Of a stretch of 50,835 bases of DNA, positions 18,812-47,453 are shown piece by piece. The DNA is taken from contig SHVW01000005.1 in NCBI GenBank assembly GCA_009694085.1, positions 1-50,835 on the forward strand, read 5' to 3'. Under the pieces are notes generated by a model. It did not search any database. It saw nothing but the letters and a program-made list of their open reading frames with translations, and was not told where the DNA came from. Source of the stretch: Alphaproteobacteria bacterium (GTDB lineage: Bacteria; Pseudomonadota; Alphaproteobacteria; SHVW01). Within the stretch, counting starts at the first letter, position 1, and each line of letters opens with the position of its first letter. The translations under genes and the position numbers were made by a program.

Positions 18812-20539
18812 TCAGGCCGCCCGGCCCAGCAAACTCTCCCCCGGCTTGACCCGCGTGAACGCGACTTGCCCCATCCCGGTCGCGAACCCGCTATTGGCGA
18901 GTACGATCCGGGTATAGGTCGCCTGTTTCGGGTCGGCCGTCTCGGGGAAATCGCCGCGATAGTGAGAGCCGCAGCTATCGCGGCGCGCCATCGCCGATGC
19001 CTGGATCGCGCGCGAGGTTAGCACTAGGCTTTTCAGATTGAGCCAATCGTGCCAAGTCAGGTTGAAGGCGAGATCTCCGGGGCTGGCCACGCTCAGGCCA
19101 TCGAGGGCCTTGTCGATCTCGGTCAGTTCGGCGGCGGCGCGCGTCAACCCATCCGCATCCCGAATAATGCCGACATCGCGCCACATGACATCCCATAACC
19201 GCTCGCGGATCGCCGGCAGAACGCCGGGATCGGGTGTGCCGCCGATCGGCCGACGCGCACGCGCAACCGCGGCCTTGATCGCCGCCTCGTCCGGCTCCGC
19301 CCAGGAGACACCGGCGTGCATGGCTGCCGCCATGGTCTCGCCAGCAATGCCGCCGAACACGGTGGAGTTGGCGACGCCGTTGCCGCCGAGCCGGTTGGCG
19401 CCGTGGACGCCGCCGGTGTCTTCGCCCGCCGCGTAAAGACCGGGCAGCGCCGTTGTGCCATCGGCGCGGAACTCCAGCCCGCCCATCATGTAATGGGCGG
19501 TCGGGATCACCTCGACCCGGCCGTCAGCCAAGTCGAAACCGCAATCGGCGCAGCGCTCCACCATGCCCTTGAAGTCGCGGCGCACGCGCGCGGCACCGAG
19601 ATGCTTCATTTCGATATAGAGCCCGCCCAGGGGCGAGGTCGGGCCCCGGCGAATCTGTTCGTACATGGCGCGGCTAACGATGTCGCGGGTGGCACGCTCG
19701 CCACGCGGGTCGTAGTCCTGCATGAAGCGCCGGCCGGAGCCGTCGAGCAGATAACCGCCGGCCCCGCGCAAGCCTTCCTCCAGCACGGTCCCGGTCATCC
19801 GCGTATCGGGCCCGGCAAGCAAACCGGTGGGATGGAACTGCACCATCTCCATGTCGCGCAAGGTCAGGCCGGCGCGCAGCGCCATGGCCATGCCGTCGCA
19901 GCTCTTGTCGCCGGAGGGCGTGTGGTAGCGATACATGGTCGGCCCGCCACCGGTCGCCAGCAGCACCGCGCGTGCCTGAACAAAGACAAAGTCGCCGGTG
20001 CGCATGTCGATCAGCACGGCACCCGCAATCCCGCCGCCGTCGCGGCTGCGCACGAGATCGATGGCGCGATGTTCCTCCAACCGCTTGACGTCGCGCGCCC
20101 AGACCTGCTCGGCCAGGCGATTGACGATTTCGATGCCGGTCAAATCGCCCTTGTGGACGGTACGGTCGAAGGTTTGCCCAGCGAAGGCCTTCTGATGCAC
20201 GGTGCCGTCGGGATTGCGGTCGAAGAAGCAGCCGAGTTCGTTTTCCAACTCCCGGATGCGCGTCTGCGCCACCGTCACCAGGGTCCAGGCCAGTTCCTGG
20301 TCGTTGAGCCACTGGCCGCCCTCGATAGTGTCCATGAAATGGCGCTCGACCGAATCCTCCGGCGCGATCGCCACGTTGAAGCCGCCCTGCACCATGCGCG
20401 TGCAACCGCATTTGCCGAGCAGGCCTTTGACCGCAATGGTCACGTCCAGTTCCGGTGCCGCCTGCTTAGCGTGGAGTGCCGCGAACAGGCCGGCACCGCC
20501 GGAGCCGAGGATAAGGATGTCGGTACGGAGCCGCTTCAC
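18812..20539 (-). CDS. Fumarate reductase/succinate dehydrogenase-like flavoprotein, probably non-covalent FAD
   Basis: 575 residues from GTG 20539, which overlaps the fumarase beta stop (GTGA). FAD-binding DILILGSGGAGLFAALHAKQ is at the N-terminus; active-site segments MEMVQFHPTGL, GGVHGANRLGGNGVANSTVFGG and RRDSCGSHYRGDFPE carry the His, Arg and Thr expected for fumarate/succinate chemistry. Where SdhA and FrdA have the FAD-linked histidine (SHTxAAQGG) this protein reads GCTRMVQGG, so the flavin should not be covalently attached. Placed in one operon with both fumarase subunits and an ABC importer. It may work with the SdhB/C/D-like subunits at 29902-31316 or be a separate soluble reductase. 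Confidence 0.85.
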   Translation of the reverse strand: MKRLRTDILILGSGGAGLFAALHAKQAAPELDVTIAVKGLLGKCGCTRMVQGGFNVAIAPEDSVERHFMDTIEGGQWLNDQELAWTLVTVAQTRIRELENELGCFFDRNPDGTVHQKAFAGQTFDRTVHKGDLTGIEIVNRLAEQVWARDVKRLEEHRAIDLVRSRDGGGIAGAVLIDMRTGDFVFVQARAVLLATGGGPTMYRYHTPSGDKSCDGMAMALRAGLTLRDMEMVQFHPTGLLAGPDTRMTGTVLEEGLRGAGGYLLDGSGRRFMQDYDPRGERATRDIVSRAMYEQIRRGPTSPLGGLYIEMKHLGAARVRRDFKGMVERCADCGFDLADGRVEVIPTAHYMMGGLEFRADGTTALPGLYAAGEDTGGVHGANRLGGNGVANSTVFGGIAGETMAAAMHAGVSWAEPDEAAIKAAVARARRPIGGTPDPGVLPAIRERLWDVMWRDVGIIRDADGLTRAAAELTEIDKALDGLSVASPGDLAFNLTWHDWLNLKSLVLTSRAIQASAMARRDSCGSHYRGDFPETADPKQATYTRIVLANSGFATGMGQVAFTRVKPGESLLGRAA

Positions 20540-21150
20540 GATGGCTTCACGCCCATCCCAGCAAGCGCCGCCGCGCGCCGATCTTCCGCCGTCTTCTGCA
20601 CCGCCGTGTAGAGGCTGCCGCCATGGCTGTCCATGGCAACCAGCAGCGGACCGAAACCCTTGACTTGAAATTGCCACAGGCTTTCCGGGTTCAAATCGTC
20701 CATGTCGACATCGACGATCGCCTCGATCCAAGTCGTCTCTAGCGCCGCCGCGCCGCCGATAATGGCGAGATAGGCGCCGCCCAACTCGGCGAAGGCGCGC
20801 GACGTCTCCGCCATCAACCCGCCCTTGCCGATGATCAGGCGCACGCCGTTCCCGGCCATCAACGGCCGGGTGAACCGCTCCATGCGCGCGCTGGTCGTGG
20901 TACCGACGCAGACGGGATGATAGCCCACGGGATATTCGTTCGACACCGGCACCTTGCGCACATTGGGTGCGGTGTGCAGGACCGCATGGCCGGCAAGATC
21001 GAATTTAGTCTTGCGACCGCGGTCGAACATGTGGATCAGCGTGGCGTCGCGAATGCCGTAGAGCGCGCCGTCGAGCGTGACCGTATCGCCGATGACGAGT
21101 GCGCGCGCCTGGGCCTCGGTGATCGGGGTGGGAAGGTCGTGGTGGGTCAT
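20536..21150 (-). CDS. Class I fumarase/L-tartrate dehydratase, beta subunit
   Basis: 204 residues, the size of the separate C-terminal (beta) subunit. Recognisable segments: LTGDTV-like LVIGDTVTLDGALYGIRDATLIHMF, HTAPNVRKVPVSNEYPVGYHPVCVGTTTSARMERF, LIIGKGGLMAETSRAF, DMDDLNPESLWQFQVKGFGPLLVAMDSHGGSLY. It assembles with the alpha subunit at 21972-22847 to hydrate/dehydrate a C4 dicarboxylate (fumarate, tartrate or a near relative). Remarkably, two toxin-antitoxin genes separate it from the alpha gene; its ATG overlaps the HEPN stop by 4 bases, so translation coupling is kept. Confidence 0.88.
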   Translation of the reverse strand: MTHHDLPTPITEAQARALVIGDTVTLDGALYGIRDATLIHMFDRGRKTKFDLAGHAVLHTAPNVRKVPVSNEYPVGYHPVCVGTTTSARMERFTRPLMAGNGVRLIIGKGGLMAETSRAFAELGGAYLAIIGGAAALETTWIEAIVDVDMDDLNPESLWQFQVKGFGPLLVAMDSHGGSLYTAVQKTAEDRRAAALAGMGVKPS

Positions 21151-21581
21151 GGACCGCCAGTATGGCGCTGTTCGATGCGATCGATTGCGCTGCGCAAACT
21201 CTCGATACGAACCAGCATCGAGCGAACATCATCAGCCGACGGGCCATGATACTCAGCGAACCCAGGGTATCGAGACAATACATACCATGAGGTCAGGTCT
21301 GGAATCGCTGTCACCTCATTCGTCAACTCTGGGAATGCCGGTCCCGCCCGCGCGACAAGTGCATCAATGTCATGAATTCGCGGCGGTGAAATGCCCACCG
21401 CGACCAAGAGCGCCTTCAATATTTTTTCGACGGCCTGCTGACAGTGAAAGGCCGCAGGTTCGACGAGCGGCGGATCGCCATCAACGCATCGTCTCACAGC
21501 AGCCAAATCATCGTCGGCCTTAACAAGCCACCGCCGCGCCTCCTTCCATTGCTTGGGAAGCTCTCGACTAGGGTCGCTCAT
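21147..21581 (-). CDS. HEPN domain protein of an MNT-HEPN toxin-antitoxin pair
   Basis: 144 residues from ATG 21581. Core HEPN sequence: RRWLVKADDDLAAVRRCV, AAFHCQQAVEKILKALLVAVGISPPRIHDI and LTSWYVLSRYPGFAEYHG. This RYPG-containing HEPN subfamily is regularly next to a minimal nucleotidyltransferase. The RNase motif R-x4-6-H of HepT toxins is not clearly present (Arg104 and His112 are seven residues apart), so toxicity may differ or be absent. Starts 14 bases inside the nucleotidyltransferase gene. GC content is lower than that of the flanking fumarase genes, which points to later arrival. Confidence 0.8.
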   Translation of the reverse strand: MSDPSRELPKQWKEARRWLVKADDDLAAVRRCVDGDPPLVEPAAFHCQQAVEKILKALLVAVGISPPRIHDIDALVARAGPAFPELTNEVTAIPDLTSWYVLSRYPGFAEYHGPSADDVRSMLVRIESLRSAIDRIEQRHTGGP

Positions 21582-21972
21582 ACACGACGACGCCTTCGTT
21601 AGTCGCGATGTGCGCGAGCGACCCAATGATGTCCTTTCGCTCCTGAAACACGGATTCTCGGCACGCGATAATATCCACCGGATCATGATACCCTCGGCGA
21701 GCCTCGCCAAGTGCGCGCCACGACAGCTTTTCCGCTGGACAGTCGTCATCGAGGATTACGACTAGATCGAGATCGCTGTCTGGTCCAGCCTTTCCGCGCG
21801 CCGCCGATCCGAACAAGATGATCTTACGCGGAGCAAAAAATCCAACGAGCGCATCAAGCAATTTGCGCGGGACCACGGCCTGCTTATCCTTGCCAACGCT
21901 CCGCCCCACGGAAGGACTGCGGTGAAGTCTTCCAACCCGCTTAGGTGCCGCTGTTTTCCGTGCCTGAGCCAT
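21568..21972 (-). CDS. Minimal nucleotidyltransferase (MntA-like) of an MNT-HEPN pair
   Basis: 134 residues. The pol-beta nucleotidyltransferase signature is complete: LFGSAARGKAGPDSDLDLVV, with Gly55-Ser56 and catalytic Asp67 and Asp69, and a third acidic residue at Asp100 (DPVDIIA). In characterised pairs the MNT enzyme AMPylates the HEPN RNase and silences it. The N-terminal 30 residues are a basic extension (KTAAPKRVGRLHRSP) beyond the usual domain. The ATG shares one base with the stop of the fumarase alpha gene (TGATG). Lies inside the C4-acid operon rather than alone. Confidence 0.82.
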   Translation of the reverse strand: MAQARKTAAPKRVGRLHRSPSVGRSVGKDKQAVVPRKLLDALVGFFAPRKIILFGSAARGKAGPDSDLDLVVILDDDCPAEKLSWRALGEARRGYHDPVDIIACRESVFQERKDIIGSLAHIATNEGVVVYERP

Positions 21973-22847
21973 CAGAAACCAATCTTAACACCATCCGGCG
22001 TGAAAATCGCCGTGGCACGCCGCGCCGAATGGCACTGAATGTTGACCGCCACGGGGTTCATGGTGATGTGGGTCGCGGCGATCTCGACATGGACCGCGAA
22101 GGCAGTGGAATCACCGCCCAAACCCTGTGGTCCAATGCCCAGGCTATTGACGGCGGCCGATAGTTGCCGCTCCAGCTTCGCTCCCTCCGAATCGGCGCAA
22201 GCAGATCCCAGCGCGCGGGTCGCCGCCACCTTGGCCAGGTGCGCACACAAATCCGAGGTGCCGCCGACGCCGACGCCGACGATTGTTGGCGGGCAGACCC
22301 GACCCCCCGCTTCCATTACCCGGTCGATCACGAAGGTCTTAATGCCGTCGATCCCGTCGGCAGGAATGCACATCTTGAGGAACGAGCCGTTCTCCGAACC
22401 CGAGCCCTTCGGGATCATCTCGATCGCCAGCTCCTCCGCACGATCGGTGAAATCGATGTTGATGACGGGCACGAGTACGCCACAGGAGCTGTGTTCGTTT
22501 ACTCGGGTGATGGGATGCACGACGGAAGAGCGCAGGGGATATTCCCGGGTCGCCCGTTCGCAGCCGCGCCGGATCGCCTGCTTGAGCGCAACGCCGTCGA
22601 GTTCGACGCCACGACCGATCCTGACGTTGTAGATCGGGATGCCCGTATCCTGGCACAGCAGATTGTCGGTCTTCTCCGCCACCGCAATATTTCGGATCAT
22701 GGTCGCCAGGATCGATTTTCCCGTGGCGTCGGTCTCGCCGGCGTCCAGGCGCTGGAAGCCCTGTTTGATGTCATCGGGCAGCACCTTGAGCGCGCGGATA
22801 TAGAGCAGCTTGGCCGTTTCCTCGATCGCGGCGGGATCGACCCTCAT
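21972..22847 (-). CDS. Class I fumarase/L-tartrate dehydratase, alpha subunit
   Basis: 291 residues from ATG 22847, chosen for its 4-base overlap with the permease stop; an ATG 15 bases further upstream is also open. Family segments: DNLLCQDTGIPIYNVRIG, VVHPITRVNEHSSCGVLVPVINIDF, KGSGSENGSFLKMCIPADGI, VGVGVGGTSDLCAHLAKVAATRALG. Cysteines in LLCQDTG and SSCG and ACADSEG are candidates for the [4Fe-4S] ligands of these oxygen-sensitive hydro-lyases. Catalytic partner of the beta subunit at 20536. Fumarate versus tartrate cannot be decided by reading. Confidence 0.88.
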   Translation of the reverse strand: MRVDPAAIEETAKLLYIRALKVLPDDIKQGFQRLDAGETDATGKSILATMIRNIAVAEKTDNLLCQDTGIPIYNVRIGRGVELDGVALKQAIRRGCERATREYPLRSSVVHPITRVNEHSSCGVLVPVINIDFTDRAEELAIEMIPKGSGSENGSFLKMCIPADGIDGIKTFVIDRVMEAGGRVCPPTIVGVGVGGTSDLCAHLAKVAATRALGSACADSEGAKLERQLSAAVNSLGIGPQGLGGDSTAFAVHVEIAATHITMNPVAVNIQCHSARRATAIFTPDGVKIGF

Positions 22848-23725
22848 CGCTGCATGCCCCATTTGCGCACGGTCCTGATCTCGATGGTGCGGAACACCAC
22901 GCTTTCCACGAGCAAGCCGATGATGATCACCATGACCAGCCCGGCGAAGACATAGGCCGTTTCAAGTTGGTTGCGGTTCTCGAAAATGAACCAGCCCAAT
23001 CCGCCCGAGCGCGAACTGACGCCGAATACCAATTCCGCCGCGATCAGGGTACGCCAAGCGAAGGCCCAGCCGATCTTGAGCCCGGTTAGGATCGAGGGGA
23101 AGGCGGCCGGGATCAGGATATAGGCGACGTAGCGCAAGCCCCGGAGTCCATAATTCTGCCCGGCCATGCGCAGGGTTTCCGACACGGAGAGAAAGCCGCC
23201 ATGGGTGTTGAGCGCCACCGCCCACAGCACGGAATGAATGATGACGAAGATCAGGCTGGGAATGCCCAGGCCGAACCACAGCAGTGCCAAGGGCAGGAGC
23301 GCGATAGCCGGCAGCGGGTTGAACATGGCGGTCAGGGTGGACAGGAAATCGGTGCCCACCCGGGTCGACACGGCAATCGTGGTGAACACGGCGGCAATCG
23401 CGATGCCCGCGCCATAGCCGAGCAGCAAGACGCGGATCGAGGTCCACACCCGCTCCAGCAACGGCCCCTTGATCGAGGCATCCCATAGCGCCGTCATGGT
23501 TTCGTCGAAGGTAGGGAACATCAGCGGATTGTCCAGCCAGCTCGCATAGATCTGCCAGGCCACGGCGAGCACGAGCAAGATGAACAGGCGGCGCACCAGC
23601 GTGATGTTCGAGATGCGCTCCCAGGCCGAGAGCGGGCGCGCAACGTCGCCGATCTGGCCGGCCTCGCCAGGCCGCACCTCGAATTCCGGGCGCACCGGCG
23701 GCAAGCGCGGCTCAGCTCCGGCCAT
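22844..23725 (-). CDS. ABC transporter permease, NitT/TauT type
   Basis: 293 residues from ATG 23725 (AAGAGGAG ribosome site), overlapping the ATPase stop by 14 bases; a longer reading to 23815 lies wholly in the ATPase gene and is less likely. Six hydrophobic segments follow a polar N-terminus. The ATPase-coupling EAA loop reads MAGQNYGLRGLRYVAYILIPAAFPSILTGLKIGWAFAWRTLIAAEL, the typical form for nitrate, taurine, aliphatic sulfonate and aromatic-acid importers. Coupled to the fumarase alpha gene, which suggests the imported compound feeds that enzyme. Confidence 0.9.
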   Translation of the reverse strand: MAGAEPRLPPVRPEFEVRPGEAGQIGDVARPLSAWERISNITLVRRLFILLVLAVAWQIYASWLDNPLMFPTFDETMTALWDASIKGPLLERVWTSIRVLLLGYGAGIAIAAVFTTIAVSTRVGTDFLSTLTAMFNPLPAIALLPLALLWFGLGIPSLIFVIIHSVLWAVALNTHGGFLSVSETLRMAGQNYGLRGLRYVAYILIPAAFPSILTGLKIGWAFAWRTLIAAELVFGVSSRSGGLGWFIFENRNQLETAYVFAGLVMVIIIGLLVESVVFRTIEIRTVRKWGMQR

Positions 23726-24548
23726 GGAGGCGCTCCTCTTCAATGCGCTCGGCGAACAGCATGTTGTGAATGCGGTTGTGCAGCGCCTGGAACTCGCCGC
23801 CGCCCTGCTCGTCATGGCTGAACTGGTGAGCGTTGAGTTCCGCCTTGACCTGGCCGGGATGGGGCGACATGACCAGGATGCGCGAGCCGACGATGATCGC
23901 CTCCTCGATCGAATGCGTCACGAACAGCATGGTGAAGCGGACATCATCCCAGAGCTGGAGCAGCTCTTCCTGCATCTTGCGCCGGGTCAAGGCGTCGAGC
24001 GCGGCGAACGGCTCGTCCATCAGCAGGATATCCGCCTCCATCGCCATGGCGCGCGCGATTGCCACGCGCTGCTTCATGCCGCCGGATAGCATGTGCGGAT
24101 AGGCATCGGCGAACTTGGTCAGATTGACCTTGTCGATATAGGCCCACGCTCGCTCCGCCGCCTCCGCCCGGTTGCATCTTCCGCTGACCAGCATGGGGAA
24201 CAGGATGTTCTCGCGCACGGTTTTCCAGGGCAGCAGTTGGTCGAATTCCTGGAACACCATCATGCGATCCGGCCCGGGCCGCTCGATCGTCTGGCCCTTC
24301 AGGCGGATCGTGCCCTCGACAGGTGCCATGAACCCGCCCACGCCCTTAAGCAGGGTGGACTTGCCGCAGCCGGACGGCCCCAACAGCACGAAGCGGTCGG
24401 AGGGATGGACCTGAAAACTGACGCGATAGGTCGCCGTGACCAGATGGTCCCGCGTCTTGTACTGGAGCGTGACGCCGTCGACCGCCAGCAGGGCCGGCGC
24501 GTGCTCGTCCACCATCTCTGCGTTAGCTGCCGGCAACGCCGTGGACAT
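23712..24548 (-). CDS. ABC transporter ATP-binding protein, NitT/TauT type
   Basis: 278 residues. Walker A LLGPSGCGKSTLLKGVGGF, Q-loop MMVFQEFDQLLPWKTVREN, signature LSGGMKQRVAIARAMAM, Walker B ILLMDEPFAALDALTRR and the switch histidine in LFVTHSIEEA are all present. GFMAPVEGTIRLKGQTIERPGPDRM is the style of TauB/SsuB/NrtD ATPases. The start lies 26 bases inside the binding-protein gene, so ATG 24548 assumes overlap; no better internal start is seen before the conserved region. Confidence 0.9.
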   Translation of the reverse strand: MSTALPAANAEMVDEHAPALLAVDGVTLQYKTRDHLVTATYRVSFQVHPSDRFVLLGPSGCGKSTLLKGVGGFMAPVEGTIRLKGQTIERPGPDRMMVFQEFDQLLPWKTVRENILFPMLVSGRCNRAEAAERAWAYIDKVNLTKFADAYPHMLSGGMKQRVAIARAMAMEADILLMDEPFAALDALTRRKMQEELLQLWDDVRFTMLFVTHSIEEAIIVGSRILVMSPHPGQVKAELNAHQFSHDEQGGGEFQALHNRIHNMLFAERIEEERLHGRS

Positions 24549-25551
24549 CGGGAAAATAATAGTCTTTCCAGGTCTCGGGCTTGTTACGCAGCGAACCGAC
24601 CTTGTTCATGAAATTTGCGTATTTGATGGTGTTGAGCGGCACGATGGTGTGCCGCAGTTCCGGGCTTTCCACCATCCGGTTGATGAATTCGACCGCCAGC
24701 TTCGATTGTTCCTCCTCGATATAGATTTTGACCGCGTCGGCGCGCCGCTTCTGGATAAAATCATGGGCCTCGACCAGCGCGTCGAACACGGCCTTGTAGC
24801 TGCGCGGGTTCTCGTCGCGGAACTTGGCGGTGGTGTAGGCGGAGTTGAAGGTGACGGGGCCGCCCAACACCTCGAAGCTGCCGATCACCTTATGCGCCTT
24901 GCCCGTTTCGATCTGCTGGAACTGAAAGGGCGGGCTGCTGAAATGGGCGGTGATCTCCGACCGGCCCGACAGCATGGCCGCCGTCGCATCCGGGTGGGCC
25001 ATCGACACGGTCAAATGATCCAGCTTGCCATGCTGGCCCGGGCCGAAAGCCGCCTCGCATGCCATTTGCAACGTGACCGCCTGGATCGACACCTTGACCG
25101 CGGGCAGCGCGATGCGGTCCTTGTCGGTAAAATCCTTGATCGACTTGACTGCGGGATTGACTGTGTTGAGATAGAGCGAGGTCGCATCGAAGCAGCCGAT
25201 GCCGCGCACATTGGCGTTGCCCCTGGTCTTGTCCCAGATGGTCAGCAGCGGCCCGATGCCGCCGGACACCACATGCATGCTGCCCGAGAGCAGCGCATCA
25301 TTGGCCGCCGCGCCGCCCGTGGTCTTGAGCCATTCGACCTTATTGTTGGGCAGACCGGCGCGCGCCAGATGCTTCTCGATCAGCTTCTCGGCCTTCATCA
25401 CATGGAGCGGCGTGTAGGCCAGGCCGAATTGCGGCGCGAGCACGATGGTGCCGACCTCCGGTTTCGACTGGGCAACGGCCAGGCGCGGCATAGTGCCGGC
25501 AGCGGCAAGCCCGGCCAGAACGGCGCGGCGCGATGGACGGTGTGTGGTCAT
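24523..25551 (-). CDS. ABC transporter substrate-binding protein, NitT/TauT type
   Basis: 342 residues. A twin-arginine-like leader (THRPSRRAVLAGLAAAGTMPRLAVAQS) suggests Tat or Sec export with cleavage near residue 28. The mature part has the NMT1/TauA-like fold sequence: FGLAYTPLHVMKAEKLIEKHLARAGLP, LLSGSMHVVSGGIGPLLTIWDK, GRSEITAHFSSPPFQFQQIE. GGGGAGGC before ATG 25551 is a strong ribosome site. First gene of the eight-gene minus operon ending with the flavoprotein. Ligand unknown; an organic C4 or related acid is inferred from the enzymes downstream, while sulfonates or nitrate are the classical ligands of the family. Confidence 0.88.
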   Translation of the reverse strand: MTTHRPSRRAVLAGLAAAGTMPRLAVAQSKPEVGTIVLAPQFGLAYTPLHVMKAEKLIEKHLARAGLPNNKVEWLKTTGGAAANDALLSGSMHVVSGGIGPLLTIWDKTRGNANVRGIGCFDATSLYLNTVNPAVKSIKDFTDKDRIALPAVKVSIQAVTLQMACEAAFGPGQHGKLDHLTVSMAHPDATAAMLSGRSEITAHFSSPPFQFQQIETGKAHKVIGSFEVLGGPVTFNSAYTTAKFRDENPRSYKAVFDALVEAHDFIQKRRADAVKIYIEEEQSKLAVEFINRMVESPELRHTIVPLNTIKYANFMNKVGSLRNKPETWKDYYFPDVHGVAGS

Positions 25552-26248: not shown

Positions 26249-26662
26249 CTAATCCCGCGTCACCGTCAGCAACCCCGCCGCCGGATCGACCGTCACTCCG
26301 TCGCCCGTGCGCAATAACTCAGTCACATCGCCCTCGAACCGATCCATGAAGGGCAGATCGGCCAGCGCCGCGCCCTGGGCCATGATCGGGTTGGCGAAGT
26401 TCAGCAACAGCGCCAGCGGCGCCATGGCGCGCGCGGCCATTTCGTGCAGCATCCACGCCGTCGCCACCCCGCCCTTGGCGACGTTGAGCACGAGCACGCG
26501 GCCGACATAGCTTTGGCCCACCAGCTTGTGCTGGGGCCGCACGAAAATGCCCTTGATCCGATCGAGATCGTAGCGCGCGCTGAAATTGTCGGCGGCAACC
26601 AACGCCGTGCCCGTGACCTTGGGCCCGATACCGGCATGGCCGCGCAGCGTGAAGCTCGTCAT
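26249..26662 (-). CDS. Aconitase X swivel (small) subunit, divergent paralogue
   Basis: 137 residues of the DUF126/AcnX swivel domain: RIKGIFVRPQHKLVGQSYVGRVLVLNVAKGG, ATAWMLHEMAARAMAPLALLLNFANPIMAQGAALADLPFMDRF. In canonical AcnX small subunits the phosphate-like loop reads GSSSGS; here it is AKGGVATAW, so the substrate pocket differs. Start overlaps the large subunit stop by 4 bases (ATGA). AcnX enzymes dehydrate small hydroxy acids such as cis-3-hydroxy-L-proline in bacteria. The reaction of this diverged form is not readable. A canonical pair is present at 47043-48706. Confidence 0.8.
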   Translation of the reverse strand: MTSFTLRGHAGIGPKVTGTALVAADNFSARYDLDRIKGIFVRPQHKLVGQSYVGRVLVLNVAKGGVATAWMLHEMAARAMAPLALLLNFANPIMAQGAALADLPFMDRFEGDVTELLRTGDGVTVDPAAGLLTVTRD

Positions 26663-27918
26663 CGAACGATCCTCCCGGCGACCGCGCTATCGACGCAACG
26701 CTCCATGCTGGCCAGCACGGGCCGGTAGCCATAGCCGCCGATGATGTTGACCAGCTTGGCCGAGTTCGACATCAGCCGGGTCCAGCCATTGGACTCGCCG
26801 ATCTCGCGCGCATAGCTCTGATAGAAACAGACGCCCTCCAGCACCAGGGCGCCGGATTGCTCGATCCGGGCGGTCAGGCCCAGGCGATCGCAGGACGCTT
26901 TGATTTCCGGCGAGGTCGCGGCAAGCAATGTCACCTTTGGGTTGATTCGTCTTCCATCCAATAAATCGGCCAGCGCTTGCATCTCGAACAGGGAGAGCTG
27001 GGGCGCCGCGAACACGATCACGTCGAGGCCGTCATCGGGAGGCGCATAGGAGCGAGTGAAGGCGGCGATCTCGCCGGCGCCGATCGGCTCCGCCCGCGGC
27101 GGCGGGCCGTCGAACACGGTGGCCAGATCGGGCGCCTCGGGCGTGACGCCGATCATGTGGAACAAGGGCACGGAGCCATGGCTGGCGAGCGCGGCGCCGA
27201 AATGCTTGAGTTCGTCGGAGGTCGGCGGCCCCGCCACGCCTGCGATCACGGGCACCTGCCAATAGGAATCCATGCGCCGGCCGATCAGGCCGCCGAGCGC
27301 GCCCCATTCGCTCCAGTCGCGCGGGCGCTCCGTGAGCGCGAATAGCCGCGTGCCCCGGCGATGGCGGTCGAGGTGATAGCCGTAATTGGGCGTCCGCCCG
27401 GTCAGCGCCGCGGCCAGCGCCGACGGCCCGCCCTCGAAATTGCTGCGCGCGCCGAGCACGCTGCTGGCGTAGATGACCGACCCGGTATCGCCGAAGGCCA
27501 GATGCTGGCCCAGGACCGGTGGCATCACGGTCTGGTAATTGATGCAGGTATTGGTCATGAGCACGCCGAGCGCCGAGAAGGCGGCAATGGTGCGGCGTTC
27601 CAGGTCGACCATCTCCGCCGTCTGCTTCAGGCGCTTATAGGCCTTGAAATCGACGCCGCGCGGATCGGTTACGGTCGGCACGCGGACCCGGCGCTCCGCT
27701 AGCGAATGAGCGGCCAACTTTTCCAGCAAAGCGACCCCGGCCTCGCCCAAGGATTCCGCGTCCGCCATGATGTGAACCTGATCGATGGGCACCATGTCGG
27801 CCGCGTCGAAGAAGCGGCCGACCTCGATCTGATGCTCGATCGCCCAGCGCCGGGCCGGGCCGGCGGCTCCGGCCGACATCGCTTGTTCCTCGTCGCCGAG
27901 TTTCATGGCTTCTCCCAT
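26659..27918 (-). CDS. Aconitase X catalytic (large) subunit, divergent paralogue
   Basis: 419 residues of the DUF521/AcnX catalytic domain: VPIDQVHIMADAESLGEAGVALLEKLA, VRVPTVTDPRGVD, TNTCINYQTVMPPVLGQHLAFGDTGSVIYASSVLGARSNFEGGPSALAAALTGRTPNYGYH, LMSNSAKLVNIIGGYG and a C-terminal ERCVDSAVAGRI. Compared with the second copy, SNAIAFCNSVLGARTDRYGD becomes SVIYASSVLGARSNFEGG, and MTNSGKFAHYAPG becomes MSNSAKLVNIIGG. Start choice between ATG 27918 and 27906 is open. Faces the aminotransferase gene on the other strand across an 80-base gap. Confidence 0.82.
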   Translation of the reverse strand: MGEAMKLGDEEQAMSAGAAGPARRWAIEHQIEVGRFFDAADMVPIDQVHIMADAESLGEAGVALLEKLAAHSLAERRVRVPTVTDPRGVDFKAYKRLKQTAEMVDLERRTIAAFSALGVLMTNTCINYQTVMPPVLGQHLAFGDTGSVIYASSVLGARSNFEGGPSALAAALTGRTPNYGYHLDRHRRGTRLFALTERPRDWSEWGALGGLIGRRMDSYWQVPVIAGVAGPPTSDELKHFGAALASHGSVPLFHMIGVTPEAPDLATVFDGPPPRAEPIGAGEIAAFTRSYAPPDDGLDVIVFAAPQLSLFEMQALADLLDGRRINPKVTLLAATSPEIKASCDRLGLTARIEQSGALVLEGVCFYQSYAREIGESNGWTRLMSNSAKLVNIIGGYGYRPVLASMERCVDSAVAGRIVR

Positions 27919-27998
27919 TCAGGCGACGGAGTGTAGCCGCCCGCGCCATGGGTGCAAAAGGGGCAGCGCATCGATCCGCCCGCCGCTATAGTCGCGCC

Positions 27999-29174
27999 AT
28001 GAACGATACAACCCTCCCCCCTCTCGGCGCCGCCATTCGCGAGAAATGGCACCTCGATCCTGCGGCACTCACGGTCAATCACGGCTCCTTCGGCGCCACG
28101 CCGAAATCGGTCCTGGCCGCGCAAGACGAATGGCGCCAGCGCATGGAAGCGCAGCCCACCCGCTTCATGGCGCTCACCCTGCCCGAAGCGTTGCGCGCAG
28201 CAGCGGGGCGGTTGGCATCGTTCCTGGGTGCCCGCGCCGAAGACGTCGCCTTCACCGACAACGCGACGACCGGCTGCAACGCCATTCTCCGCTCCCTACG
28301 CTTGGCGCCGGGCGACGAAATCCTGATGCTGGATCACGGCTACGGCGCGGTAAAGAACACGGCACGCCATGTCGCGGCGCTGGCCGGCGCCCGCATGGTG
28401 GAAGCTGCCCTGCCCTTCCCGCGCCCCGATGGCGACGCGATCGTTGCCGCAATGTCGGTGGCGCTGACCCCGCGCACGCGCCTTGTCGTCATCGACCACA
28501 TCACCTCGCCCAGTGCCCTCGTGCTGCCCATCGCCCCCATAATCGCCGCCTGCCATGCCGCCGGCGCCAGGGTGTTGATCGACGGCGCCCACGGGCCGGG
28601 CCAAGTCGATCTCGATCTCGACGCCCTGGGTGCCGATTGGTATGCCGGCAATTGCCATAAATGGCTGATGGCGCCCAAGGGCTGCGCCTTTCTATGGGCG
28701 CGCGCCGACCGCCAGGACGATCTTCATCCCGTCGCCATCTCTCATGGCTACGGCAAGGGCTACCTCGCCGAGTTCGATTGGACCGGCACGCGCGATCCCA
28801 GTGCCTTTCTGGCCGTTGGCGCCGCCATCGATTTCTACGAAGGGTTGGGCGGCGCACGACTGGCCCGGCGTAATACCGCCCTGGCCGCGGAGGCCGGCAA
28901 TCTCCTGGCCCGGCGGTTCGGCACGGAATGCGGCAGTACCGGCGACACCCGGGGCGCCATGGCGCTGGTGCGCCTGCCGATCCTCGGCCCGGTCGACCAG
29001 GCCCGCGCCCTCGTCTTGCGCCAGCGCTTGCTGCGGGATCATGCGACGGACGCGCCGCTCAACGCCATCGGCGGCGCCGTCTGGCTCCGCCTATCCGCCC
29101 AGGCCTATAACGAGATCGGCGATTACGAGCGGCTCGGCGATATCGTCGAGCGTTTGGTGCGCGACAACCGGTGA
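27999..29174 (+). CDS. Class V PLP-dependent aminotransferase (isopenicillin-N-epimerase-like)
   Basis: 391 residues. The PLP lysine is Lys221 in AGNCHKWLMAPKGCAFLW, and Asp195 and His198 in VLIDGAHGPGQ face the cofactor. The N-terminus TVNHGSFGATPKSVLAAQ and NATTGCNAILRSL are typical of the isopenicillin-N-epimerase/cysteine desulfurase-like branch, which also includes lyases of unknown substrate. I start at ATG 27999; the frame is open upstream to 27948 but that part has no family match. Divergent from the first AcnX pair and convergent with the TSUP gene (5-base gap). Its substrate may be linked to the AcnX pair, but only by position. Confidence 0.82.
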   Translation: MNDTTLPPLGAAIREKWHLDPAALTVNHGSFGATPKSVLAAQDEWRQRMEAQPTRFMALTLPEALRAAAGRLASFLGARAEDVAFTDNATTGCNAILRSLRLAPGDEILMLDHGYGAVKNTARHVAALAGARMVEAALPFPRPDGDAIVAAMSVALTPRTRLVVIDHITSPSALVLPIAPIIAACHAAGARVLIDGAHGPGQVDLDLDALGADWYAGNCHKWLMAPKGCAFLWARADRQDDLHPVAISHGYGKGYLAEFDWTGTRDPSAFLAVGAAIDFYEGLGGARLARRNTALAAEAGNLLARRFGTECGSTGDTRGAMALVRLPILGPVDQARALVLRQRLLRDHATDAPLNAIGGAVWLRLSAQAYNEIGDYERLGDIVERLVRDNR

Positions 29175-29179
29175 TCCGC

Positions 29180-29905
29180 TCAGATCAGCAGCGTCGCACC
29201 GGATAGCGTGAGTAACCACAGCACGATTCGGCGAAACCGCGCATCGTCGATGCGCCGGTAGAGCTTGATGCCGAGCCAACCGCCGAGTCCTAGGGCCGGC
29301 AGGCAGACCAGAAATCCGAGGCCGAATTCCTCATTGAGATAACCATCGCGCCCATGGGCCAGCAGGGTCGCGACGTGAATGGCGATGTTGAAGGGCTGAT
29401 AGACCGCGCGCTGCGCATCCTTGTCCCAGCCGCGCAAGCCGCACCACAGGGTCGGCAAGGCGCCGGATAGACCGGCCAGGCCGCCGAGCACGCCGCCGGA
29501 CAGGCCGACCGTGCCATCAGCGACCCGCCCAGCCCGCGCGAAGGGGGACATAGGCGGCAGGAACAGCATGATCCCGCCATAGGCGAGCAGGAAGCCGCCG
29601 AGCACGCGGCGAAACAATGCGGCATCGAGGATGCCGAGCAGGAAACTGCCGAGCGGCACGCCGGCCAATCCGCAGACCACGAAGGGCCAGACCCGGTCGA
29701 CCCGGATCGCGCGCCAGATCGACGGCAGCGCCAGAAGCTGGACCGCCAGGCTGCACGCCACCACCAGCGGCGCGGCCAAGGTCGGCGCCAGCACATGGAG
29801 CCACAGACCGAGCGCCACCAGACCGAAGGCGAACCCGGCGAGGCCGGAGACGAAGGAGCCGAGCAACGCGCCCAGCGCCGTCGCCAGCGCGATCTCCAAG
29901 CTCAC
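29180..29905 (-). CDS. TSUP family (TauE/SafE) permease
   Basis: 241 residues from GTG 29905 (GTGA overlap with the preceding membrane subunit). About seven hydrophobic segments; TSUP duplications are visible in ALGALLGSFVSGLAGFAFGLVALGLW and GLSGGVLGGLAGLSGALPTLW. The family exports or imports sulfite, sulfonates or organic anions. It ends the SdhB/C/D-like operon, and the coupling suggests it is made together with that complex, perhaps exporting an anionic product. Confidence 0.82.
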   Translation of the reverse strand: MSLEIALATALGALLGSFVSGLAGFAFGLVALGLWLHVLAPTLAAPLVVACSLAVQLLALPSIWRAIRVDRVWPFVVCGLAGVPLGSFLLGILDAALFRRVLGGFLLAYGGIMLFLPPMSPFARAGRVADGTVGLSGGVLGGLAGLSGALPTLWCGLRGWDKDAQRAVYQPFNIAIHVATLLAHGRDGYLNEEFGLGFLVCLPALGLGGWLGIKLYRRIDDARFRRIVLWLLTLSGATLLI

Positions 29906-30258
29906 GCGAATACGCCGAGCAGGAACATCAGCCCAATCGTCAGCCCGACCGCCACGCCGGCCAGGATCGTCGCGCGCGCCATGGCGCCGGCAGCGCCGGC
30001 TTCCAGGGCAAGCACGCGCAAACCCCCGGTCAAATGCAGGGCGAGCAGCAGCACGAGGCCGGTCTCCGCCGCCTTGACCAAGGGTTGGCTCGCCCAATCG
30101 AGGAAACCGCCGAGCGCTTGAGGCCCCTGGATCGCCTGGCCCAACGCCCAGAAATGCAAGGGCAGGAACAGAGCCAGCGCGACCCCGGACAATCGATGGA
30201 TCAGGAACGCCCAATAGGCGGCGTGCCCGCGACCGCGCAGATCGATCGACGGTCTCAC
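29902..30258 (-). CDS. Succinate dehydrogenase/fumarate reductase membrane anchor subunit (D-like)
   Basis: 118 residues from GTG 30258 (GTGA overlap). Three membrane segments; IHRLSGVALALFLPLHFWALG and LVLLLALHLTGGLRVL carry the histidines expected to ligate heme b and the RxSG quinone-site motif of SdhC/SdhD. Second of two small anchors following the iron-sulfur subunit. A classical subunit order would include a flavoprotein next door, which is missing here. Confidence 0.78.
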   Translation of the reverse strand: MRPSIDLRGRGHAAYWAFLIHRLSGVALALFLPLHFWALGQAIQGPQALGGFLDWASQPLVKAAETGLVLLLALHLTGGLRVLALEAGAAGAMARATILAGVAVGLTIGLMFLLGVFA

Positions 30259-30593
30259 CGGAAAAGCCCCACCACGGCGCGCAGGCCGAGCCAGATCAGC
30301 GCCAGACCGAATCCGAACGCCGCCAAATCGAGCGACCGGCCGCGCCATGCCGTCATTTCGCGCAAAATGGCGCGCAGCCCGATCGGCGCGTGAACCGCGA
30401 CGGCCAGCACGAACAGGCCGTAAAAGGCGAGCCAGGTTATGCTGCCGCGCGTGCGCCCAAGGATTTCGGCCGCGCTCAACCCACCCTGAACTGCATAAAT
30501 CATGGTCGCGAGATGAACCGCGACGCACAGCGCCAGCATGGCGGCGCTGGCCCGCTGGGCCAGCCATAACCGGGCACCCAACCGATCCGTCAT
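30255..30593 (-). CDS. Succinate dehydrogenase/fumarate reductase membrane anchor subunit (C-like)
   Basis: 112 residues with three hydrophobic segments. WLAQRASAAMLALCVAVHLATMIYAVQGG has the Arg-x-Ser and His27 of the quinone/heme site, and LAVAVHAPIGLRAIL the second heme-ligand histidine (His68). The ATG follows the stop of the iron-sulfur subunit without any gap (TGAATG). Together with the D-like subunit it anchors the iron-sulfur protein to the membrane and passes electrons to or from quinone. Confidence 0.78.
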   Translation of the reverse strand: MTDRLGARLWLAQRASAAMLALCVAVHLATMIYAVQGGLSAAEILGRTRGSITWLAFYGLFVLAVAVHAPIGLRAILREMTAWRGRSLDLAAFGFGLALIWLGLRAVVGLFR

Positions 30594-31316
30594 TCAAATC
30601 TCGCCCTTGAGTGCCGCCAGCGCGCTGGCGCGTTTGAGCCCCGCGATCGACAGCGTCGGGCTGATCTGCTTGGGACAGTGCTCCGTGCAACTCTGGTGGC
30701 TGTGGCAGGCGTGGCAGCCCGCATCGCCAGCCACGGCGGCGAGCCGGGCCGTGTGCGCGCCATCGCGCGCGTCATTGTGAAGCGTCCAGGCCCGATTGAG
30801 CGCGGCCGGCCCGAGATAGTCGGGGTTCCATGCGACCACGTCGCAGGCGCTATAGCAGACGGCGCAGCCGATGCATTCGATACCGGCATCCGCCGCCTGG
30901 CGCTGGATCGAGGCCGGCGCCACCGGCGCGAAATCGTCGGTGCGCGTCTGCGTCGGCGCGAACCGCCCGCGGGCGCGCGACCACTTGTCGAAAAAGGGCG
31001 CGAGATCGCAGGCCAGATCCTTGATCACCGGCATGTTGCGCAGCGGCGCGATCTCAACCCGGCCGTCGGCGCCTGCCACCCGAGCGACATGGGTGCGGCA
31101 GGTCCAACGCGGCTTGCCGTTGACCGTCATGGCGCAGGAGCCGCACATGCCGACCCGGCAGGCGAAGCGATAGCTCAAGCCGGGTTCGAGGCGCTGCTGG
31201 ATATGGCTGACCAGATCGAGCACGGTCTGGTTGGCGCGCCGCGGCACGGCATAGGCGACGAACCGGCCCTCCGCCGCGCCGCGCCACACCGAAACCTCCA
31301 ACATTTCCTCTGCCAT
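30594..31316 (-). CDS. sdhB: Succinate dehydrogenase/fumarate reductase iron-sulfur subunit
   Basis: 240 residues. [2Fe-2S] ligands Cys53, 58, 61 and 73 (CRVGMCGSC, then WTC); [4Fe-4S] and [3Fe-4S] ligands in CIGCAVCYSAC (148-158) and CHACHSHQSCTEHCP (201-214). The segment RWTCRTHVARV and PVIKDLACDLAPFF are standard for SdhB/FrdB. First gene of the B-C-D-TSUP series. No SdhA/FrdA gene adjoins it; the only candidate in this window is the flavoprotein at 18812-20539. Confidence 0.88.
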   Translation of the reverse strand: MAEEMLEVSVWRGAAEGRFVAYAVPRRANQTVLDLVSHIQQRLEPGLSYRFACRVGMCGSCAMTVNGKPRWTCRTHVARVAGADGRVEIAPLRNMPVIKDLACDLAPFFDKWSRARGRFAPTQTRTDDFAPVAPASIQRQAADAGIECIGCAVCYSACDVVAWNPDYLGPAALNRAWTLHNDARDGAHTARLAAVAGDAGCHACHSHQSCTEHCPKQISPTLSIAGLKRASALAALKGEI

Positions 31317-32896: not shown

Positions 32897-33922
32897 TTAA
32901 TATCCGAGTTCGCCGCACACCTGTGTGGGCAGCGGCCGGCCGCGCAGATAGGCCGCCAGATTCTGGAAAAAGACGTCGCAGCAGCGCGCAGCGTAGGCCC
33001 CCGGGTCGTCGGACGACACATGCGGCGTGATCAGCAGCCGCGGCGTGGTCCATAGCGGCGAATCGGGCGGCAGCGGTTCCGGCTCGAACACGTCGAGAAT
33101 GGCGCCGGCCAGCCGGTCGGCACGCAACGCGGCCGCGAGCGCTTCGTAATCCACCACCGGCCCCCGCCCCGTGTTGATCAGCCCGGCCGTCGGCTTGAGC
33201 AGGGCCAACTCGCGCGCGCCGATCATGCCGCGCGTTTCCGGCGTCAGCGGCGTCACCACGATCAAAAAATCGGCTTGGGGCAGGACCTTGTGTAGCTGCG
33301 CCGGCTTGATCATGCGGTCGACATGGCGCACCGGCTTGCCGCCGCGGCGCACGCCGATCACCTTGAGGTCGAGTTGCTTGGCCCGGCGCGCGCATTCCGC
33401 GCCGATCGCGCCTACGCCGACGATCACCACCGTCTTGCCCGCGATGGGCGAACTGAACGCCGAGTTCCACCGCCGCGCCTTTTGATCGTCGATATGAAGC
33501 GGCATCTGATCGTTCAGCATGAGCAGCGCCATCATGGCGAACTCGCCGGCCTTGGGGCCGTGGACGCCGCTGGCATTGGTCACGACCGCGCCCTTGGGCA
33601 GCCAGTTCAGCGGCATCAACCCCTCGACCCCGGCGGCCGTCACGTGAAGCCACTTCATGTTGCGGGCAGTTCCGCCGATGACGGCGCGGTCGACCTTCGA
33701 GCCGGAAAACACGATCTCGGCCCGAGCCAGCGCGGCCAGGTCCGGAGCCTTGTCCATGGCGAAAACCGGCTTGACCCGTTTGGCCAATGCCGGGTGCCGG
33801 CGCGCCGCCGCCTTCCACACCGCCGGCGTCATCCAATAGACCTCGGGCTGGTTGGCGTTGATCTGGACGTAGAGCGGGATGGGCGCCGGTTTGGCCGGCT
33901 TCTTCGTGCGCGATAGGGGCAT
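32897..33922 (-). CDS. D-2-hydroxyacid dehydrogenase (NAD-dependent)
   Basis: 341 residues. Nucleotide motif GVGAIG at 169-174, catalytic Arg253 (NTGRGPVVD), Glu282 (VFEPEPLP) and His301 (TPHVSS), and the N-terminal substrate domain with SGVHGPKAGEFAMM. All catalytic residues are in place. The first 15 residues are a Lys/Pro-rich extension. It follows the VOC gene by 11 bases and ends the long minus operon that begins with a peptide-type ABC importer, so it may reduce or oxidise a 2-oxo/2-hydroxy acid released late in that pathway. Confidence 0.88.
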   Translation of the reverse strand: MPLSRTKKPAKPAPIPLYVQINANQPEVYWMTPAVWKAAARRHPALAKRVKPVFAMDKAPDLAALARAEIVFSGSKVDRAVIGGTARNMKWLHVTAAGVEGLMPLNWLPKGAVVTNASGVHGPKAGEFAMMALLMLNDQMPLHIDDQKARRWNSAFSSPIAGKTVVIVGVGAIGAECARRAKQLDLKVIGVRRGGKPVRHVDRMIKPAQLHKVLPQADFLIVVTPLTPETRGMIGARELALLKPTAGLINTGRGPVVDYEALAAALRADRLAGAILDVFEPEPLPPDSPLWTTPRLLITPHVSSDDPGAYAARCCDVFFQNLAAYLRGRPLPTQVCGELGY

Positions 33923-33933
33923 GGCTGGACCTT

Positions 33934-34761
33934 TCAGGCCGGAATGAATTCGATGACGGCGCCACAGGCTTGGGCGGGCGCGATCCAGATAGAGCCGGTA
34001 GGCCGACTACGATAATCCGCGCCATTCGCCCTGAGCAAGGCGCAAGTCCGTGCGATGTCGTCGGCTGTAAGCGCAATGCCGGCCAGAAAGGGGAGCGCCG
34101 GCGCGGCAACGCCGGAATAGCGCCGCTCTAGCCCAGCCGGATCGACCGTGTCGACCGAGCCGAAGGCGAGTCTGACCGTATGAGCGTCCCCGTTGGCCTG
34201 GACGGCGACGCCGAGCGTGGCGGCCAGTTTAGCCGCATAGGCGGCGGGATCGGCAGCACAGACCGTCATTTCCAATAGCCCGCGCGCACCATTGGCGTGA
34301 GGCAGAAGATGGGGCTGCCAGAGCGCCGCACGGCTATGATGCTCGATGGCGATGTAAGTATCGTTACCGACCGGCGCGGGCAGATCGACGATCGAGAATT
34401 CCGCCGTGACCGATTTGCCCCGTTCGACGATCGGTCGGGTCAACCGGCGTGGCATCCCCGCGGTCGCGGCATCGGCGCAGCCGAACGCGACGATGTGCAG
34501 ACCCTCGTTCTGCGCCAGATGCTGGCGCAACCCGCCCCGATAGGCGGGATCGGTGATCCCGATCAACTCGACATAGCCATGGGACAGCATGACGCAATGA
34601 TTGCCCGTACCGCGAGGCGTGGGCGCCGCACCGGGACTGGCCGGCGCCACGTGATAGCTGCGGTCGCTGAGCGTGAAACCGAGCCGCCGATACACCGCCG
34701 CCGCGCCATCCAGATCGTGGACGGCAATACCGACGTGATCAAGGTCGAAGCCGGGGCTCAC
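33934..34761 (-). CDS. VOC-superfamily protein (glyoxalase/bleomycin-resistance fold)
   Basis: 275 residues. N-terminal beta-alpha-beta module FDLDHVGIAVHDLDGAAAVYRRLGFTLSDRSYH with a metal-candidate His, GTGNHCVMLSHGYVELIGITDP, and a second module GLLEMTVCAADPAAYAAKLAATLGV to VIEFIPA. This Glyoxalase_3-like layout is used by lyases, isomerases and ring-cleaving enzymes. Overlaps the CoA-ligase stop by 4 bases, so it is part of the same catabolic operon; the reaction is unknown. Confidence 0.8.
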   Translation of the reverse strand: MSPGFDLDHVGIAVHDLDGAAAVYRRLGFTLSDRSYHVAPASPGAAPTPRGTGNHCVMLSHGYVELIGITDPAYRGGLRQHLAQNEGLHIVAFGCADAATAGMPRRLTRPIVERGKSVTAEFSIVDLPAPVGNDTYIAIEHHSRAALWQPHLLPHANGARGLLEMTVCAADPAAYAAKLAATLGVAVQANGDAHTVRLAFGSVDTVDPAGLERRYSGVAAPALPFLAGIALTADDIARTCALLRANGADYRSRPTGSIWIAPAQACGAVIEFIPA

Positions 34762-47042: not shown

Positions 47043-47453
47043 CTAGACCGTGATCGCGCCCTCAACCGAAACGCTCGCCTCCGCACCATCGACAAGCCGT
47101 TCGTGCCGGTCGACGGGCAATTCCAACAACGGAATCGTCGGCCAGCCCATTTCGCGCGCCACCAGGATACCGAGGCCGATGATGGCGTCGATGCGGCCAA
47201 GCACGAGCGCGGCTGGCGCGTGGCCGCCAGCCAACAGCTCCAACATCACCGCGCTGCCCGAGCTGGAGCCGCGCAGCTCCGGCAGGACCAGGACACGGCC
47301 AGCGATGCTCGTGCCGTGCCAGGTTTGGCGCGGATTGGTCAACTTGCCCGTGTAGGGGTCGACATCGCCCCAAAAACTGAGCGCCTGCGCCAAGCGCAGC
47401 ACCCGGCCGGCGCCGGTACCGGTGATCACGGCGCGCGCCTGGATTACCGCCAC
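47043..47453 (-). CDS. Aconitase X swivel (small) subunit, canonical form
   Basis: 136 residues from GTG 47453, which overlaps the large-subunit stop by 10 bases; the frame is open to 47501 but the extra residues lie in the large-subunit gene. DUF126 features: FWGDVDPYTGKLTNPRQTWHGTSIAGRVLVLPELRGSSSGSAVMLELLAGG, APAALVLGRIDAIIGLGILVAREMGWPTIPL. The GSSSGS loop and D-P-x-T-G are the usual form of bacterial two-subunit AcnX, for which cis-3-hydroxy-L-proline dehydratase activity is known in several bacteria. Confidence 0.84.
   Translation of the reverse strand: MAVIQARAVITGTGAGRVLRLAQALSFWGDVDPYTGKLTNPRQTWHGTSIAGRVLVLPELRGSSSGSAVMLELLAGGHAPAALVLGRIDAIIGLGILVAREMGWPTIPLLELPVDRHERLVDGAEASVSVEGAITV

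Follow-up and report, generated by a model that had tools for sequence, protein, structure and literature searches.

The closest described relatives of the enzyme considered here are two aconitase X (AcnX) proteins of solved structure, the cis-3-hydroxyproline dehydratase AtAcnX (7CNP) and TkAcnX (7CNR/7CNS), a two-subunit phosphomevalonate dehydratase of type IIb that acts on mevalonate-5-phosphate. According to the available portions of the papers, to which our citations refer throughout, the catalytic base proposed for both is a serine in a loop of the small domain (Ser70 in AtAcnX, Ser62 in TkAcnX) that would act as an alkoxide, and the S70A mutant of AtAcnX is nearly inactive; the leaving hydroxyl, the carboxylate and a water are held by Glu292, Ser293, Lys530 and Tyr534, and it is the large subunit, not the small-subunit loop, that binds the phosphate group of mevalonate phosphate (PMC8184944). 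The glutamate has been called highly conserved among all AcnX enzymes, its alanine mutant in P. aeruginosa AcnX is inactive, and for AcnX types IIc-IIf the function is stated as unknown (PMC10040528). Here we analyse a divergent AcnX gene pair in the window, by which we mean the whole stretch of 50,835 nucleotides studied (contig SHVW01000005.1, assembly GCA_009694085.1, of an alphaproteobacterium).

Our reading, to which we give a probability of roughly 0.4, is that this pair encodes a two-subunit AcnX enzyme, presumably with an iron-sulfur cluster, which belongs to a distinct conserved clade with a rebuilt catalytic site and would help to degrade a sulfonated di- or hydroxy-acid. Co-occurrence, joined in some loci by gene order, ties the clade to a set of succinate dehydrogenase (SDH)-like, fumarase-like and TauE genes associated with SuyAB, the (R)-sulfolactate sulfo-lyase of the UxaA/GarD family. 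Because the base residue is lost, a new active site is conserved and the genes tend to be found with those for breakdown of sulfur-containing organic acids, this widespread bacterial branch of AcnX probably does chemistry new to the family. Should the sulfonate link hold, SDH-like, fumarase-like and AcnX proteins would form a candidate pathway for sulfonated dicarboxylic acids, with AcnX as a candidate enzyme, and the function of an uncharacterised AcnX group would become directly testable.

Active site compared with solved AcnX enzymes

An initial annotation of the window had proposed a second, divergent AcnX pair at 26249-27918 next to a canonical one some 20 kb away, and both are borne out by open reading frames and Pfam domains:

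26659-27918, minus strand: divergent AcnX large subunit, 419 aa (PF04412 AcnX, 360 bits; clade alignment; structure model)
26249-26662, minus strand: divergent AcnX small (swivel) subunit, 137 aa (PF01989, 71.6 bits; structure model)
26453-26479, minus strand: AKGGVATAW loop, small-subunit residues 62-70, aligned with the GSSSGS loop (RGSSSGSA in the canonical copy)
26573-26575, minus strand: codon of small-subunit Arg30, which replaces Trp35 (AtAcnX) or Leu27 (TkAcnX)
27481-27492, minus strand: GDTG, large-subunit residues 143-146, which replaces E292-S293-N294
27544-27546, minus strand: codon of large-subunit Cys125, equivalent of cluster ligand Cys273 (AtAcnX) or Cys110 (TkAcnX)
26827-26829, minus strand: codon of large-subunit Cys364, equivalent of cluster ligand Cys508 (AtAcnX) or Cys342 (TkAcnX)
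26755-26757, minus strand: codon of large-subunit Lys388, equivalent of catalytic Lys530 (AtAcnX) or Lys361 (TkAcnX)
47043-48706, minus strand: canonical AcnX pair (large 47444-48706, small 47043-47501), the in-genome comparison

The two divergent reading frames overlap by 4 bases and score well above the Pfam gathering scores (360 against 31.5 bits for PF04412, 72 against 27 for PF01989). Their models have the AcnX fold of domains 1-3 and of domain 4: the predicted large subunit (predicted local distance difference test score, pLDDT, 93.1) best matches 7cnr_A among solved structures, with template-modelling (TM) scores of 0.84/0.91, and the small one (pLDDT 94.8) best matches the small chains of 7cnr (0.87/0.92 to 7cnr_D). 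The large subunits of the two window pairs are 34% identical. While the canonical pair keeps the cis-3-hydroxyproline residues tested, the third cysteine excepted, and groups in the tree with other two-subunit sequences of the same residue pattern, the divergent one does not.

When both pairs were aligned to AtAcnX and TkAcnX, the landmark residues tested in the divergent pair read R, G, A, M, D, T and I. Gly65 of the small subunit occupies the position of the proposed base, in agreement with the initial annotation, which had found AKGGVATAW where GSSSGS was expected. The large-subunit changes it quoted (in full ESNAIAFCNSVLGART vs DTGSVIYASSVLGARS, plus NSGKFAHYAPG in the canonical against NSAKLVNIIGG in the divergent copy) are real too, though it had left out the most telling part, the replacement of Glu-Ser-Asn by Asp-Thr-Gly (Glu292 to Asp144, Ser293 to Thr145, Asn294 to Gly146). 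In addition Asn233, which like Asn294 is a partner of the glutamate, has become Asp85, Tyr534 Ile392 and Asp203 Met51. Thus the conserved catalytic serine and glutamate of the family are not kept but are Gly and Asp, both invariant in the clade. What had been termed a phosphate-like loop is, in fact, the loop with the proposed catalytic serine, phosphate being bound in the large subunit (PMC8184944). As the change hits the proposed base and not a phosphate loop, the reaction may differ as well as the substrate.

The clade resembles AtAcnX in its fold, in its domains, which match those of the split form, in two of the cluster cysteines and in the lysine of the catalytic site; it differs in Ser70 (Gly), in the Asp-Thr-Gly exchange, in the loss of Tyr534, Asp203, Thr72 and Trp35 and in Cys510 (Tyr). 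TkAcnX shares the two-subunit form and is the closest solved sequence (E 4e-47 with a single sequence, 4e-64 with a profile), yet here Ser62 is Gly, Cys283 Ala, Glu129 Asp and Asn79 Asp85, and its phosphate-binding stretch aligns with a changed M-A-D-x-E stretch of the clade. Hence the two cluster cysteines are retained and the third cysteine of either known type is missing. A plain new member with a known activity, that is a cis-3-hydroxyproline or mevalonate-5-phosphate dehydratase, would agree with the common fold, the two cysteines and the mevalonate-phosphate type being the closest solved relative. To our minds it is nonetheless highly improbable: not one of Ser70, Glu292, Ser293, Asn294, Asp203, Thr72, Trp35 and Tyr534 is retained, Ala occupies the third-cysteine position of the mevalonate type, and alanine at Ser70 or at the P. 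aeruginosa glutamate leaves next to no activity or none (PMC8184944, PMC10040528). A new substrate, as first proposed, is well supported: none of the specificity residues tested is kept, neither those of the hydroxyproline enzyme (Trp35, Thr72, Asp203) nor those of the mevalonate-phosphate enzyme (Asn79, the third cysteine), and the clade has fixed new charged residues. Types IIc-IIf, bacterial two-subunit AcnX proteins, likewise are without the landmark residues of either known activity (PMC8184944, PMC10040528), and the clade may be one of them.

As for how such a site might work, the kept lysine together with Thr145 should still be able to hold one carboxylate. An arginine at the old ring-packing position and another beside the old asparagine could hold a sulfonate or a second carboxylate. 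Possible candidates for the new base, guessed from position, are Tyr31 and Asp32 in the small subunit and Asp85 and Asp144 in the large one.

A conserved clade with fixed replacements

Among 385 alphaproteobacterial genomes, the window's own included, 16 have a close relative of the divergent pair (57-100% identity). The clade also occurs in 3 of 274 genomes of a second bacterial class and, in two orders searched for further members, in 4/4 and 7/14 genomes; six further stretches from these orders and this class were left out of the clade counts. A scan of named genomes gave 447 related stretches, of which the best 80 were used, and among the plasmid matches listed (40 of 160 records) seven have 56-60% identity before it drops to 35% or less. 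Carriers include Hyphomicrobium, Ancylobacter, Methylobacterium, Sulfitobacter, Cupriavidus and many metagenome-assembled genomes (MAGs).

Invariance was read from one sequence of each subunit per locus, 94 distinct large and 93 distinct small ones, after rows below 350 aa or 110 aa, respectively, had been dropped. All 93 small subunits have Gly at the base position, and in all 94 large ones Glu, Ser and Tyr are replaced by Asp, Thr and Ile, respectively, and the GDTG stretch is present; Cys125, Cys364 and Lys388 are invariant. For comparison we took 41 large and 42 small AcnX sequences from outside the clade, with one duplicate removed and near copies left in; they cover type I and IIa-like proteins, other bacterial types, TkAcnX, AtAcnX and AF0055. 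Here the Ser (42/42 small) and the Glu, Ser and Tyr (41/41 large) are kept throughout, and none of them is found in the clade sample. Arg30, present in 93/93 clade members, is Trp in 38, Leu in three and Asn in one of the 42 others. New invariant residues (Arg30, Tyr31, Asp32 and Trp70 in the small, Met51, Asp53, Glu55 and Asp85 in the large subunit) cluster at the same places as the replaced catalytic ones. Near-invariant Arg87 of the large subunit is Leu in three clade sequences; four have Gly in place of Ala305, the residue aligned with the third cysteine of the mevalonate type. With Gly fixed at the base position and the two cluster cysteines and the lysine kept, either the base can move or the reaction has changed.

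In the tree the clade is monophyletic (100/100) on a stem of 1.73 changes per site, although its joining to TkAcnX and other long branches is unsure. Tree and motif alignment together do not place it inside a characterised AcnX clade with the same loop. To judge by the ratio of non-synonymous to synonymous change (dN/dS) against a same-genus copy, about 0.16-0.17 (0.140/0.904 for the large, 0.158/0.910 for the small subunit), both genes are under purifying selection. The divergence is far beyond chance, as seen from the low dN/dS and from the lack of any variation at the changed positions across 94 large and 93 small subunits; conservation and dN/dS also rule out a pseudogene or artefact. The pair had been regarded as a paralogue with the canonical copy as internal control. 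This understates the case, given the deep clade and the 13 of 16 carrier genomes that have no other AcnX above the Pfam cut-off (the remaining three have a canonical AcnX, in G000 and G001, or another type, in G088). A recent duplicate of the canonical pair is ruled out by the tree and these 13 carriers, and two scans of viral contigs for a phage origin gave no relative.

That catalysis has been lost, leaving an iron-sulfur binding, scaffold or regulatory protein, would fit with the missing general base, and aconitase relatives include moonlighting members. We still regard this as very unlikely, since Lys388, the two cysteines and numerous residues specific to the clade do not vary and the operons that hold some members also encode transporters and enzymes. 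No function for such an AcnX clade is given in the available parts of PMC8184944, PMC10040528, PMC5144071 and PMC11052028.

Two observations concern single copies. On a plasmid of Pseudorhizobium NT-26 (L025) two clade pairs in opposite orientation (15001-16637 and 28828-30464), with the same small-subunit accession, flank malate synthase G and glycolate oxidase genes, and the small-subunit frame is apparently interrupted in the plasmid copies of Cupriavidus EM10 and Polaromonas P1-6 (L021, L022).

Association with SDH-like, fumarase-like and sulfonate genes

Around the divergent pair the window holds the following genes:

22844-25551, minus strand: ATP-binding cassette (ABC) transporter downstream of the pair (binding protein 24523-25551, ATPase 23712-24548, permease 22844-23815; Pfam)
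21972-22862, minus strand: alpha subunit of class-I fumarase / tartrate dehydratase type (PF05681, 289 bits; NCBIfam fumarate hydratase, 303 bits, cut-off 276)
20536-21150, minus strand: beta subunit of class-I fumarase / tartrate dehydratase type (PF05683)
18812-20731, minus strand: SDH-like flavoprotein of a distinct subfamily (PF00890, PF02910)
30594-31316 and 30255-30593, minus strand: SdhB-like protein and membrane anchor (Pfam Fer2_3, Sdh_cyt)
29180-30214, minus strand: TauE/SafE-type sulfite exporter (PF01925, 110 bits, domain at residues 113-341; real start probably internal)
32897-33922 and 33934-34761, minus strand: 2-hydroxyacid dehydrogenase and glyoxalase-like protein, upstream of SdhB (Pfam; same order in G001)

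The SDH-like flavoprotein scores below the NCBIfam cut-off of every family shown. Its copies in other carriers are 61-78% identical to it, further homologues in these genomes 32-37%. In the co-occurrence statistics that follow, related genomes count as independent except where collapsed to families. The SDH-like gene occurs in 12/16 clade genomes vs 19/369 others (p=1e-11); the association persists without the window's genus (10/14, p=1e-9) and after collapse to families (p about 2.5-4.7e-4, with an assumed family total of 150 or 171). It is not one of gene order alone because in one carrier (G380) some 800 kb of a single contig separate the SDH-like gene and the AcnX pair. In the same 385 genomes the SDH-like gene also goes with a SuyB-like gene (19/31 vs 14/354, p=1e-15), and so, less strongly, does the clade AcnX (6/16 vs 27/369, p=0.001; 4/14, p=0.02, without the window's genus). 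Across genomes, then, SDH-like and SuyB-like genes accompany the pair, as in a module for organosulfonate catabolism.

Gene order adds to this. Of 20 neighbourhoods of SDH-like flavoprotein genes, those in G045 and G128, two genomes in which no clade AcnX was found, show an operon of SdhB, TauE, ABC transporter, fumarase and SdhA with a two-gene pair of the UxaA family (SuyAB type). The SuyB relative, the large subunit of that pair, is 70% identical to a gene of C. pinatubonensis HN-2 beside hpsN/hpsO; for C. pinatubonensis (JMP134 is named) an hpsRNOUPsuyAB cluster is described in which SuyAB removes sulfite from sulfolactate (PMC11382572). In a Phreatobacter MAG (L049) a single run reads SuyA-SuyB-SdhB-AcnX large-AcnX small-TauE-ABC-fumarase-SdhA, the only locus of 94 with SuyAB in the stretch examined. 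SuyAB differs from the clade AcnX by its domain families (PF20629/PF04295), and both can occur in one genome.

Annotated plasmids tell a similar story. In five of six chosen records out of 18 with the SDH-like gene (Methylobacterium oryzae, M. nodulans, Paracoccus versutus, NT-26 and Sulfitobacter THAF37) it is found with fumarase-type genes and TauE (5/5), joined in all except THAF37 by a sulfate exporter and in three by sulfite dehydrogenase or oxidase-type genes. SuyAB-type genes are near the SDH-like gene in M. oryzae, whose SorA scores above its cut-off, and about 20 kb off in P. versutus. In the sixth, a Sulfitobacter S190 plasmid, the SDH-like genes adjoin the clade AcnX together with a tripartite tricarboxylate transporter (TTT). 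By description the set also resembles a 'fumarate and tartrate' cluster of Paracoccus wurundjeri that includes a TauE homologue and from which nine proteins were raised during growth on sulfofucose; the available part of that paper mentions no AcnX (PMC12421959).

Taken together, an iron-sulfur lyase or hydro-lyase for a sulfonated di-acid seems the best reading, and we infer both substrate and reaction from the residues and the gene company. In such a route an unsaturated acid would be produced by the SDH-like complex and hydrated by the fumarase-like enzyme. The sulfonated acid would then undergo a further iron-sulfur-assisted step, beta-elimination or hydration, on the AcnX enzyme, where some residue other than serine would serve as base and the additional negative charge would be bound by the new arginines; TauE or sulfite dehydrogenase would dispose of sulfite. 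A more specific version, which we consider rather doubtful, sees the clade as a new kind of sulfo-lyase on the AcnX fold: the SDH-like complex would convert sulfosuccinate to sulfofumarate, the fumarase-like enzyme this to sulfomalate, and AcnX would, without the serine base, eliminate sulfite to give oxaloacetate. If true, this would be a previously undescribed route for C4 sulfonates; a search of the available literature for sulfofumarate, for sulfomalate and for sulfosuccinate dehydrogenase, lyase or degradation found nothing.

Of the window's other genes, a class-V aminotransferase-like one on the plus strand (27948-29174) lies between the AcnX pair on one side and TauE and SdhB on the other; the L106 copy, from the same genus, has TauE immediately next to the pair. 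Between the fumarase-like alpha and beta genes lies a HEPN / nucleotidyltransferase (MNT-like) pair (21147-21972, minus strand), for which tblastn found no homologue in nine compared loci.

Neighbours across clade loci and what they favour

We sampled 95 clade loci after dropping six duplicates. Neighbour genes were clustered with a codon score, a residual antisense cluster (number 25) being excluded from the enrichment results, and where no profile scan was made homology labels were read by eye from sequence. The pair often stands alone and its neighbours vary: 12 of the 95 loci have the SDH-like flavoprotein, 11 a class-I fumarase alpha subunit, 15 a DUF3604 protein, and eight an SsuA-like binding protein related to that of the window's ABC transporter. 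The enrichment test set 94 loci (1549 kb) against 800 kb of control sequence, in 40 windows taken from carriers and from other genomes. TauE is found 18 times vs 2 and each fumarase subunit 10 times vs 0; TauE accounts for 11 of the 176 immediate-neighbour positions, where it shares the strand of the pair each time and lies upstream in five loci and downstream in six. These TauE proteins form two groups, only 19-27% identical between groups. In L048 a sulfoacetaldehyde acetyltransferase (937 bits, cut-off 676) lies directly upstream of the pair.

The same counts bear on a different view, in which the enzyme would be an iron-sulfur (de)hydratase for an unsulfonated di- or tricarboxylic hydroxy acid or beta-hydroxy amino acid, 3-hydroxyaspartate for example, with sulfur genes nearby since the same organisms use many organic acids. 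Organic-acid transporters are close by (TTT binding protein 19 vs 0, tripartite ATP-independent periplasmic (TRAP) transporter 14 vs 0), as are GntR regulators (17 vs 1); glyoxylate carboligase, malate synthase G and glycolate-oxidase-type genes occur near some members. Moreover, the parent enzyme's substrate is a beta-hydroxy amino acid, and the new Arg30 and Arg87 would fit an extra carboxylate. We take this view as possible but on the unlikely side, for it leaves unexplained the co-occurrence with SDH-like and SuyB genes, the L049 operon and the sulfite genes beside SDH-like genes. Alternatively, the enzyme might repair or detoxify sulfite adducts and not be catabolic for an imported compound. 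Fumarate and sulfite form the adduct sulfosuccinate, and sulfite exporters, sulfite dehydrogenase and sulfoacetaldehyde acetyltransferase accompany the pair in some loci, as do fumarase and SDH-like enzymes; the uptake systems near the pair (ABC, TTT, TRAP) suggest import, however, which makes a repair role unlikely to our minds.

A role in the catabolism of a sulfonated acid, our preferred reading, has a good deal to contend with as well. The SDH-like gene is missing in 4/16 clade genomes (one of them 77% complete), SuyB is present in 6/16 only, and the AcnX and SDH-like contigs of several draft genomes may be adjacent pieces of a split operon. Near the pair, 38/95 loci have no main sulfur, SDH, DUF3604 or TTT/TRAP marker in the stretch examined. 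Against the 800 kb control the SDH flavoprotein is not enriched (11 vs 2, p=0.13), nor are Xsc, SorA, ComA and TauD, each singly too few. The markers were picked after the loci had been seen, the best enrichment p is 0.00035 and several markers fail. Some neighbours, such as glyoxylate carboligase, point elsewhere, and no TauE or SuyAB is annotated within 15 kb of the AcnX/SDH-like genes of Sulfitobacter S190. Furthermore, in genomes with the SDH-like gene AcnX and SuyB do not exclude each other (6/31 have both, p=0.45) and the window's own genome has SuyAB, on another contig with dehydrogenase neighbours; simple replacement of SuyAB by the clade AcnX, as suggested by G045 and G128, is therefore unsupported genome-wide. 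Since L049 and six genomes carry both AcnX and SuyB, the clade is not simply a stand-in for SuyAB.

A few neighbours are recorded here in their own right. The DUF3604 protein, at most 11 kb from the pair in its 15 loci and sometimes adjacent (one in the 800 kb control), is seen in L066 (7521-9764), L054, L069, L083 and L107, among others. In two gammaproteobacterial MAGs (L078, 9181-9999; L094, 7911-8729) the gene immediately upstream of the pair belongs to the ComA family (phosphosulfolactate synthase); the L078 copy passes the Pfam but not the NCBIfam cut-off. In L081, L082 and L096 the gene directly upstream encodes a PALP-family enzyme that, by eye, resembles diaminopropionate ammonia-lyase.

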